DNA of 64,000 bases from positions 1-64,000 of the forward strand of contig JAIEPW010000028.1 of NCBI GenBank assembly GCA_019748195.1, read 5' to 3'. The position numbers and the translations under genes are program-made. This document shows positions 39,886 through 61,523 of this stretch, one piece after another; position 1 is the stretch's first letter, and each line of letters starts with the position of its first letter. Under the pieces are notes generated by a model that saw nothing but the letters and a program-made list of their open reading frames with translations, did no database searches and was not told where the DNA came from. This stretch comes from Bryobacteraceae bacterium. GTDB lineage: Bacteria; Acidobacteriota; Terriglobia; Bryobacterales; Bryobacteraceae.

Positions 39886-39910
39886 CGGTGCCTGGCACCA
39901 CCAGGCACCG
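39886..39910. repeat. Palindromic repeat 1
   Basis: CGGTGCCTGG - CACCA - CCAGGCACCG: perfect 10-bp arms and a 5-nt spacer. Same family as 61128-61156 (spacer TGGTG on the other strand). Confidence 0.75.
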
Positions 39911-40202
39911 AGGGAGGGGGCGGTTCGCGGGTAAGTTTTGGTCGTGCAGGAGCTTACAGGTGGAATGGAGCGTGGGCGAAAGTGTGCCGGGAGCAACTGC
40001 CCCCCTTTTCGGGTCGCCGTCCGGAAGCTGCTGCCATTCGGGGAAAAAGGCGGTGCAACCATCCTGATTTCGCCCGATTTTGAAGTAAGAGCCGGCGGGC
40101 GAAAAACGTGGAGGTCTTACTGGGGGCACTTTTCCGGATCCGCCTGAGTCGGGCTTAACACGAACAAAGGAAACCAGTTCCGCGACTGACCTCGGGCGGG
40201 GC

Positions 40203-40223
40203 GTGCCAGGCGCCACCAGGCAC
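40203..40223. repeat. Palindromic repeat 2
   Basis: GTGCCAGG - CGCCA - CCAGGCAC, one mismatch between 8-bp arms and the same 5-nt spacer length. It is the other end of copy A. Confidence 0.65.
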
Positions 40224-40225
40224 CG

Positions 40226-40329: not shown

Positions 40330-43300
40330 ATGAAAACTCTGACGACGACCGCCGCGTTGCTGGCGGTCCTTTTCACTGCGGCGGCTTTCGCCCAGACCAG
40401 CGGCACCATCAGCGGAACAGTGAGCGATTCGACGGGCGCGGTGATCCCCGGCGTCCGCGTGGCGATCCGCAACATCGACACCAGCGAGCGCAGGGAAGCG
40501 GCATCGAACGGCGCGGGGCAGTATGCGTTCGCGTTCCTGCCGCCCGGCCGCTATGAAATCGAGTTCTCACAGGCAGGTTTTGCGACAGTCACGCGCACCG
40601 CGACGCTGAACATCACGGAACGCATCGCGGTGGACGCTGTTCTGCAGCCCTCCACGGTGGCCGAGAAGATCGAGGTGACCGAGGCGGCTCCGCTGCTGCA
40701 GAGCGAGACCTCGGCCTTGGGACGCGTGGTGGACGGCGGCGCTCTCCGCGACCTTCCCTTGTCCACGCGCAACTTCACGCAACTGCTGGCGCTGTCGCCC
40801 GGGACCTCGGCGCCGCTGAATGACGCGGGAGCCCTGGGGCGGGGCACGCAGAACATTTCCTCGGGAGGCGCGCGCCTGGGCTCGAACGCCATTTACGTGG
40901 ACGGCGTCGACGCGGTGAACCTGCACAGCAACAGCGCCTCGGAAAACGCATTCGCCTCGAACGGGATCGTGGTGCCGTCGCCGGAGGCGGTGCAGGAATT
41001 CAAGGTGCAGACGGGTCTGTACGACGCGCAGTCCGGCCGCAGCGGCGGGGCCAACGTGTCGCTGGTCACGCGCTCCGGATCGCCGCGATTCCACGGCTCG
41101 CTTTTCGAGTTCTTCCGCAACGACCGCCTGAACGCCAATTCGTTCTTCTTCAATCGCACGGGCCAGGAGCGGCCGGTGCTGAAGCAGAACCAGTTCGGCG
41201 GCACCTTCGGCGGACCGCTGATCAAGGACCGGACGTTCTTCTTCTTCAGCTATCAGGGCACGCGGCAGCGCAACGGGCTGTCCGGTTCGAGCTCGCTGAC
41301 GCTACCGGCGATTCCGCTCGACCGCTCGCGCGCTTCGCTCGGCCGTGCGTTCGCGGGACAGACCGGGGCGCGCGGCGGCCCGGCGATCGCCGCCGACGGC
41401 TCCAACATCAATGATGTCGCGCTTGCGCTGCTGAATCTGAGGCGTCCGGACGGCGGCTTCGTCATTCCCTCGCCGCAGACCTCGGCAGCCGGAGTGAATT
41501 ACGCCGTGTCGATTCCCGCGCGTTTCAGCGAGGACCAGTACATCGGCAACGCCGACCACCAGTTTGGGACGAAGAACCGGATTTCGTTCAAGTCCGTGGT
41601 GGCGGAGCAGCCCACCTTCCAGCCGCTGCCCGCGGCCAACGTGCCCGGTTTCGGCACCGGGCAGGACTTCAAGAGCCGCATCTTCAGCGTGTCGGACACG
41701 CATGTATTCAGTTCCCGCCTGGTGAACGAGGCGCGCATGGGCGTGGCGCGTCTCATCGGCACGATGCAGCAGGAAAGCCAGATTCCGCTCTCCGCCATCG
41801 GGATGCGCCGTTTTAATTCCGGCGCCTTCCCCGATATCCCGCAGATCACCGTTACCGGAGCGTTCAGCATCGGCTACAGCGTGAACGCGGATCAGGCGGT
41901 GGCTCTCACCACCTGGCAGTACAACGATACGCTGTCCTACACCGCCGGCAAGCATGAGATCCGGGGCGGATTCGAATTCCGCCGGTATCAGGACAATTAC
42001 TTCTCGAACAACCGCATGCGGGGCACGACGACGTTCCAGCGCTTTCCCGACCTGCTGCTGGGGCTGCCGGGAACTCCCTTGGCGCAGGGCGGCAACGGGA
42101 CCGGGTTCAGCAACATCAACAGCTCCAGCGTGGCCAGCGGCAATGTGGACCGCGCCGATCGGGTGAGCGATTTCGCGCTGTTCGTGCAGGATACCTGGAA
42201 AGCCACGCAGCGCCTGACGCTGACGCTAGGGCTCCGCTGGGAGTATCTCGGGTTCCCGGTGGACGTGTTCGGGCGCAACGCGACGTTCGATACGCGGCTG
42301 TACCAGCCGCCGCCGGCCGGAGGCTCCACCAGCGCGGGATTCGTGCAGAATTCCAACGCCGCGCGCCCGGTGCCGGCCATCCCGCTGAAGAACGAGACGC
42401 TGGTGGACAACTCTCCCACGCGAAATTTCGCGCCGCGTTTCGGCCTGGCGTACAAGATCACCGACAACCTGGTGATGCGCGGCGGGTACGGCGTTTACTT
42501 TGACCGCATCTCGAACCAGCTCGGGCTGCTGGAGTCGCTGTCGCTGCCGAATTACGTGCGGACGGATCTGCAGGGCGCGGCCAACATCAGCTACAGCCTG
42601 CGAGACCCGTTCCCCACCCTGCCGTTGCGCGAGGAATTCCCGGTAGTGCCGTTGCTGTTCGCGCCGCCCTACACCACGTCGCGGCCGGCGCTGTCCCTGA
42701 ATGCCGTCGATCCCACGTTCCGATCGCCGTATCTGCAGCAGTGGGGCGTCAACTTCCAGTGGCAGTTCCTGAAGGACACGGTGGCGGAAGTGGGGTACGT
42801 GGGAACGAAGGGCAGCGCGCTGCCCTCCATGCGGCTGGCCAACCAGGCGCTGCTGGCGTCGGCGGAGGCCCCGGTGAACGGGATCACCACCAACACGGCG
42901 GCCAACGCGCAGTTGCGGGTGCCCTATGTCGGGTTCTCGCCGACGGGGTTGATCTGGCTCGAAAGCTCCACGGATTCGCGTTACAACTCGCTGCAGGCGA
43001 GCGTCAGCCGCCGCCTGAGCGCGGGGCTGCGCGCGCTCGCCAGCTACACCTGGGGCAAGTCGCTGGACAACAACTCGGGCTCCGGCACCGGCGCCACCTT
43101 CACTCAATTCGACGGCGACCAGAACAACCTGGGCAGCAACCGCGGGCCGTCGGATTTCGACCGGACGCACCGCTTCGTTCTCAACTTCACCTATGCGATC
43201 CCCAAGTGGGGTTTCGGGTGGAATGAAACGCCGGTGGGCAAGCGGATGTTCAGCGGCTGGGAAATCGCCGGAGTGGCCATCCTGCAGTCCGGCGTGCCGT

Positions 43301-60399: not shown

Positions 60400-60747
60400 G
60401 TGGACGAGGGCTTGACCTACGCCTCGGTGGAAAGCCTGGCCCGGCTGCTCGAAATCTCGGCTTCGCGGCTGGCGCAGGCGCTGGGGATTCCGGAGCGGAC
60501 GCTGGTTCGGCGCAAGGCGGCGGGAAGGTTTTCAAGCGAAGAAAGCGAGAAACTGTTGCGGCTGGCGCTGCGATTCGAGGAAGCCGTGGGGTTGTTTCAG
60601 GGTGACACCACGGCGGCGGCACGTTGGATGGCGACGCCGGCGCCGGCGCTTTCCGGCCATTCCCCGCTCGAATACTGCCGGACGGAGATCGGCGGCAGGG
60701 AAGTAGAGAGCCTGATCGGACGGCTGGAGCACGGGGTTTTCTCGTAA
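60400..60747 (+). CDS. MbcA/ParS/Xre-type antitoxin (DUF2384) of a RES system
   Basis: 115 aa from a GTG at 60400. LLEISASRLAQALGIPERTL is the helix-turn-helix-like part and RWMATPAPALSGHSPLEYC...EVESLIGRLEHGVFS the DUF2384 toxin-binding domain. Family-like residues (RLGLEAARPEDAIHHVDEGL) continue upstream to a stop at 60340, without ATG, GTG or TTG, so the true N-terminus may be CTG or the start decayed. The toxin gene overlaps its stop by one base. Confidence 0.78.
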   Translation: MDEGLTYASVESLARLLEISASRLAQALGIPERTLVRRKAAGRFSSEESEKLLRLALRFEEAVGLFQGDTTAAARWMATPAPALSGHSPLEYCRTEIGGREVESLIGRLEHGVFS

Positions 60748-61127
60748 TGCCCGCCGCCTGGCGAATTGTCAAGCGGAAGCACAGCCAGACGGCATTCAGC
60801 GGGGAGGGGGCGCGGCGATTCGGAGGGCGCTGGAACTCGATCGGCGTGCCCGTGGTGTATACGGCGGGTTCGATATCGCTGGCTGCGCCGGAACTGCTGG
60901 TGCATCTGCGGGCGCCGGAACTGCTGCGGAACTACGTGGTCTTTCCGGTGGAGTTTGAAGATTCCCTGGTAAGCAGCTCGCGGCGCGGGGCGATCTCGCG
61001 GGACGGGCTGCAGGGTCCGGCAACGCTGGAAACGCGGGCGGTGGGGAACGCCTGGGCGGCGTCCGGGAGGTCGGCGGTGTTGCGGGTGCCGAGCGCGGTG
61101 GTCGCCTCGGAGTGGAACTTCCGGGGG

Positions 61128-61156
61128 ATCGGTGCCTGGTGGTGCCAGGCACCGAT
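61128..61156. repeat. Palindromic repeat 3
   Basis: ATCGGTGCCTGG - TGGTG - CCAGGCACCGAT: perfect 12-bp arms and a 5-nt spacer. Confidence 0.78.
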
Positions 61157-61459
61157 GGCTGGGCGACCAAAGGCGGAAGTGGCTTTATCGCAAGGCGGTT
61201 ACCCTGTTGAAAACGGCTCCCGGAAAAGTACCCCTGTTCGGACTTCCCCGGTTTCCGGCGACGGGTTTTTCGAGCCAGATCCAGATGTAAGTATAGGGAA
61301 GCGTTGGTCTTCCAGCGCTTCGGGGCGACAGGCGCGACGCAGGCATGGCATACGGCCGGAAAAGTGGGGGGAGTTGGCCCTAACGCTCTTCTCGGAGCGC
61401 GGAAATCTGTTAATAAGTTCTAATAGCTCATATGCTTACCGGAGATCCCGGCGAGCGGC

Positions 61460-61482
61460 GGCGCCAGGTGGTGCCTGGCGCC
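61460..61482. repeat. Palindromic repeat 4
   Basis: GGCGCCAGG - TGGTG - CCTGGCGCC: perfect 9-bp arms, same spacer TGGTG. It is the other end of copy B. Confidence 0.72.
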
Positions 61483-61523
61483 GGTGCTAACCTGGCAGCG
61501 ATGCTAGCGGAACAAGGCGCCCG

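Follow-up and report, generated by a model that had tools for sequence, protein, structure and literature searches.

Palindrome-ended elements in a Bryobacteraceae genome as probable gene-less derivatives of a mobile RAYT element

RESULTS AND DISCUSSION

Two palindrome-ended elements in the window

The window, that is, the whole stretch of 64,000 nucleotides that was analysed, carries two complete copies of an element bounded by palindromes. Copy A is intergenic and ends 105 bp before position 40330, the likely ATG of an outer-membrane beta-barrel gene; copy B lies in a toxin-antitoxin locus. An earlier note had reported palindromes, loops and GAAAAG boxes at both places. All of these are present; the limits given for copy B (61128-61482), however, had to be moved, and the proper element spans 61130-61483. 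The features are as follows.

39886..40225, + strand: copy A, complete non-autonomous element, 340 bp (family profile)
39886..39910, + strand: left-end hairpin of A, 10-bp arms, loop CACCA
39933..40011, + strand: left inward box array of A, AAGT - TTA - GAAAG - TTTTC
40005-40010: box 1 of A, CTTTTC (GAAAAG in the earlier note), within the left array
40098..40179, - strand: right inward box array of A, inverted, limits approximate
40129-40134: box 2 of A, CTTTTC (GAAAAG in the earlier note), within the right array
40201..40225, + strand: right-end hairpin of A, loop CGCCA, in direct orientation relative to the left hairpin
60400..60747, + strand: Xre/MbcA/ParS antitoxin gene of the toxin-antitoxin pair
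60747..61129, + strand: RES-domain toxin gene of the same pair, shortened by copy B, at whose edge the domain match ends
61130..61483, - strand: copy B, complete non-autonomous element, 354 bp, in the orientation opposite to A
61130..61154, - strand: right-end hairpin of B
61223..61228, + strand: GAAAAG box 2 of B, 99 bp from the right end
61359..61364, + strand: GAAAAG box 1 of B, 120 bp from the left end
61459..61483, - strand: left-end hairpin of B

In copy A, the left palindrome (39886-39910) reads CGGTGCCTGG-CACCA-CCAGGCACCG and the right one (40201-40225) reads CGTGCCAGG-CGCCA-CCAGGCACCG. The motif GGTGCCTGG occurs six times in the window, where 0.58 occurrences are expected, and every one falls within A or B. 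Read in the orientation of the element, CTTTTC (GAAAAG on the other strand) stands at position 120 in both copies, and a second CTTTTC stands 97 (A) or 99 bp (B) from the other end, so that the same boxes do recur in the same order and spacing in the two oppositely oriented copies, as had been proposed.

A family profile, whose training set included A and B, matched these two copies over their whole length, scoring 219 and 198 bits, its only other hits in the window being their own weak reverse-strand echoes. The resemblance is not confined to the palindromes, a possibility that the earlier note had left standing: with the palindromes removed, the scores against a profile built from the other copies were 87.7 bits for A and 62.1 bits for B, whereas the best shuffle of any copy reached 5.4 bits with the palindrome-free profile, the alignment behind it having included all copies. 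Neither A nor B contains a transposase domain, and both are therefore non-autonomous, in agreement with the earlier reading.

Copy B truncates a RES toxin gene

The RES match of the toxin stops at profile position 133 of 157, and its alignment with ParT (160 residues) stops at ParT residue 132, in both cases at the edge of copy B. The frame of the truncated toxin continues for ~119 codons into the element. The missing end of the toxin was sought beyond copy B and was not found there, which points either to its later loss or to an insertion accompanied by a deletion. As judged from these alignments, copy B lies inside the RES toxin gene, at its 3' end, and truncates it.

The family in the genome

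The whole genome (5.83 Mb, 154 contigs) was searched, and the copy counts given here come from these searches. The degenerate palindrome GGYGCCWGGYRCCACCWGGCRCC has 36 exact matches in the genome and none in 395 other genomes of the phylum; ~50 palindromes were found at two mismatches or fewer in the loci fetched from the genome. A covariance model of the left ends recovered 18 ends above 70 bits, four of them on the transposase-bearing copies described below. In 60 genera of the family the palindrome occurred near background, and the commonest palindrome had no exact match in viral contigs. The genome holds about 14 gene-less copies. Twelve complete ones were aligned. The complete gene-less copies measure 340 to 373 bp, apart from one of ~435 bp (C126:13707-14141). 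A and B are thus not the only copies in the genome, and the dispersal that had been suspected is borne out: the complete gene-less copies, 12 or more in number, and the 18 strong left ends are spread over many contigs.

The complete gene-less copies are ~50% identical to one another, as are their interiors, and the best pair of copies reaches 64%. This low identity, together with the many lone palindromes in the genome, would suit a loose dimer in which two REP palindromes came to lie side by side by chance with unrelated DNA between them. However, the boxes keep a constant spacing from the ends, the complete gene-less copies are mostly 340-373 bp long, and each of them, stripped of its palindromes, scored 32-88 bits against a profile of the others, compared with at most 5.4 bits in shuffles, although the test was not fully independent since the held-out copies had been in the alignment. 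A chance pairing of palindromes is scarcely credible in the light of these results. The whole-element profile gave ~9-16 bits at places with a palindrome only and 42-85 bits at the ends of the long copies.

Direct hairpins and inverted inner box arrays

In the 16 paired elements the end hairpins show the loop CACCA or CGCCA on the same strand at both ends. Transposases of the IS200/IS605 type, which act on single strands, require hairpins placed in this way. The earlier description is corrected accordingly: the two end palindromes of a copy are direct, not inverted, with respect to each other. Three of the 10 pairs of the left hairpin vary, all with two-sided changes, and 98.3% of the cells are paired; the right hairpin pairs less well in its lower stem (76%). 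The dinucleotide AT precedes the left hairpin in about half of the complete copies, and no GTAG (or GT[AG]G) was seen at the hairpin foot in the listed flanks of complete copies. The search for target-site duplications recommended in the earlier note revealed none beyond 0-2 bp in 16 elements.

Inside the hairpins, the elements carry a spaced motif, AA[CG]T - TTA - GAAAG - TTTY, which runs inward from both ends and begins 21-22 nt from the hairpin. Ten of the 14 left ends and nine of the 14 right ends carry it, none of 14 does so in the reverse sense, and shuffling yielded at most one per round; having been composed after both ends were viewed, the motif has descriptive statistics only. When a profile of the left end was tested for inverted symmetry the bit scores were weak, and it is the spaced motif alone that showed symmetry. 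The GAAAAG boxes first noticed belong to this inverted inner array. An IS21-like origin of these boxes was considered and was dropped once the transposase-bearing copies had been found.

Hairpins so strong and conserved, enclosing a more variable interior, could also belong to a structured non-coding RNA or to a regulatory or terminator element repeated by chance, the hairpins acting as terminators; the position of A just upstream of an outer-membrane receptor gene would fit such a role. However, no Rfam family matches in the window, and the consensus fold consists of the end hairpins plus one pairing between a C-tract and a G-tract that lacks two-sided changes, consensus RNA folding of the interior having given no supported structure. 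Moreover, the same ends flank a transposase gene in four places, and copy B sits inside a toxin gene. We regard an RNA or terminator function as very improbable.

A separate observation concerns the hairpin surroundings. Short tandem duplications of 12-20 bp, formed by the hairpin foot and adjoining flank, were found at 11 of 100 hairpin sides, compared with 3 of 2000 for shuffled flanks (for example G000:C126:9570, C147:94873, C124:62144 and C56:8526). They may reflect slippage at the hairpin or the footprint of a transposase that cuts and rejoins.

Long copies carry a RAYT gene

Four long copies of 946-951 bp (~947 bp) combine the ends of the family with a 237-aa reading frame, and the suggestion that a transposase encoded elsewhere might be involved gained substance here: these copies share the palindromic ends and the subterminal motifs and encode a transposase of the RAYT/Y1 type. 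Three of them (C152, C126 and C119) share 97.9-98.8% identity along 946-951 bp; they stop at the palindromes, their flanks are mutually unrelated, and no target duplication beyond 2 bp was seen for these three. The long form has multiplied recently, and from the sequences the RAYT here appears to move as a unit. The fourth copy (C124) has ~80% identity in the coding part, and the dN/dS of its gene (0.26) indicates purifying selection. A further copy, of 227 bp (C152:82999-83225), has clearly arisen from the long form by internal deletion, which implies that gene-less derivatives do form.

The 237-aa protein matches Y1_Tnp (PF01797) above the cut-off. Its best NCBIfam match is the REP-associated tyrosine transposase, with 66.5 and 70 bits, below the curated cut-off of 80. 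H60, H62 and Y119, corresponding to the HUH motif and the catalytic tyrosine, are invariant in 20 sequences, and the residue between the two histidines is Ser or Gln (HSH/HQH) rather than hydrophobic. Against the PDB, a profile of 20 relatives hit 4er8 best (1.6e-7), which is the E. coli TnpAREP bound to a REP hairpin. The same entry is the closest fold to the predicted structure (pLDDT 91.6; TM 0.72 of target), and the IS608 and ISDra2 transposases come next. A C-terminal helix-turn-helix is a trait of TIRYT subclass 2.1; a Pfam search of the final 73 residues gave no such match, and the structure model places C-terminal helices at 178-190, 197-207 and 220-235.

The link between the two forms was examined with a palindrome-free profile of the gene-less copies; the long copies had been left out of its alignment, which makes this an independent test. 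Three long-copy ends were found with 45, 31 and 27 bits; in the commonest long type the left end scored only 14-15 bits. In addition, when A is aligned with the long copies, its right box array falls on the 3' end of their RAYT frame; in the long copies themselves the right array overlaps that end of the transposase frame.

The closest RAYTs in other genomes are ~46% identical. By these searches, the palindrome motif and the close transposase are private to this genome in a comparison with 395 other genomes of the phylum. Six further Y1_Tnp matches occur in the same genome (G000 C93, C140, C142, C151, C42 and C35), and none was found with the ends of the family.

Taken together, the results make it very probable that A and B derive by deletion, as non-autonomous forms, from a mobile RAYT element. 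The absence of a target duplication fits the Y1 transposase class rather than a classical DDE-type MITE, and the latter is ruled out by this absence together with the Y1 transposase partner.

A closely related reading takes A and B for deletion derivatives of long standing that have ceased to move, and leaves mobility today to the RAYT-bearing form alone. It shares the origin proposed above and differs as to present activity. The gene-less copies are at most 64% identical in pairs, whereas the long copies reach 98-99%, and since their mutual identity is only ~50%, no complete gene-less copy is, by sequence divergence, a recent arrival; only long copies moved recently. Relics should, however, decay evenly, whereas here the end palindromes are nearly identical across copies (several 25-mers exactly so) despite the diverged interiors, a pattern that fits continuing use of the hairpins. 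We consider immobile relics a possible but rather doubtful reading.

Comparison with known systems

Several described systems resemble this family in part. The palindrome-associated transposable elements (PATEs) of Haloquadratum walsbyi are transposase-free, have palindromes near their ends and cause no target duplication; some are core deletions of IS605-type elements, and heterogeneous PATEs are very divergent in sequence (PMC3119063). Likewise, the element described here is transposase-free, with palindromes close to both termini and a target duplication of 0-2 bp, and it is tied to an element with a Y1 transposase through shared ends and the 227-bp deletion copy. PATEs are, however, defined by the absence of terminal inverted repeats and are paired with IS605-type transposons of an archaeon (PMC3119063), whereas here there is an inverted inner box array, and a RAYT takes the place of the partner.

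A REPIN is a short doublet of inverted REPs with a GTAG foot, and the RAYT that accompanies REPINs is described as single-copy and incapable of mobilising itself (PMC3116915, PMC3733652). Our element is similar in being a miniature non-autonomous unit bounded by two palindromes, in a genome that also encodes a RAYT (PMC3116915), but it differs in its ~340 bp, its direct hairpins, the lack of a GTAG foot and the three near-identical RAYT copies.

In the TIRtron or TIRYT arrangement, a RAYT-like gene is flanked by long inverted repeats that sometimes overlap the gene; one well-defined TIRYT group comes from Acidobacteria, and TIR repeat families exist, for instance in Koribacter (PMC3733652, PMC6006769). 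Inverted box arrays surround the RAYT gene here and recur in the gene-less copies, although they are imperfect and a simple inverted-repeat comparison did not pick them up. Many related RAYT genes of the same bacterial family lie between inverted repeats, at similar distances, that contain GGGGACAG or a variant close to it, the layout to which the name TIRtron was given (PMC3733652). Unlike in TIRtrons, the hairpins form the outermost ends of the element. The motif GGGGWSAS of the TIRtron inverted repeats is present only in the three near-identical long copies, in their right arm (GGGGTCAC), and not in A or B. Among the named arrangements, the TIRtron is the best fit, with hairpin ends added. 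As a side observation, a related RAYT of another genus (L190, G005:C325) is flanked by GAAAAAGTGACAGGCACTTTTT palindromes, which are reminiscent of the GAAAAGTG...CACTTTTC module in the present genome.

Finally, IS608 and ISDra2 of the IS200/IS605 family share the HUH/Y1 fold, direct hairpins at both ends and the lack of a target duplication. To our knowledge, inverted box arrays have not been described at their ends. Elements of that family cleave single strands and insert 3' of a fixed short target; no such tetra- or pentanucleotide emerged for the copies described here. In our view the element is best classed as non-autonomous and PATE/REPIN-like, belonging to a mobile RAYT element.

Proposed mode of movement and significance

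The autonomous form of ~947 bp consists of a hairpin, a left subterminal region of ~140 bp, the 237-aa HUH/Y1 gene, a right subterminal sequence overlapping the 3' end of that gene, and a second hairpin. By analogy with the IS200/IS605 and TnpAREP families, we infer the following mode of working. The four long copies would supply transposase in trans to the gene-less copies, and it is this enzyme that presumably moved A and B. The transposase would recognise both end hairpins on the same strand of single-stranded DNA and cleave beside them; the cleaved ends would be joined into a single-stranded circle, which would then be inserted without target duplication. The inverted inner boxes (AA[CG]T, TTA, GAAAG, TTTTC) probably bind protein as double-stranded DNA, possibly the C-terminal domain of the transposase itself.

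Tentatively, then, this may be a non-domesticated RAYT, one that still transposes whole, accompanied by gene-less derivatives of its own, and that recognises its ends in two ways, through direct single-strand hairpins and through inverted double-strand box arrays; we advance this as a conjecture that could well prove wrong. If true, such a RAYT would be intermediate between the IS200/IS605 insertion sequences and the immobile RAYT/REP systems. Three near-identical dispersed RAYT copies with exact hairpin ends and gene-less relatives in one genome offer a natural test system for the origin of RAYT/REP systems from insertion sequences, and for the respective roles of hairpins and inner boxes.
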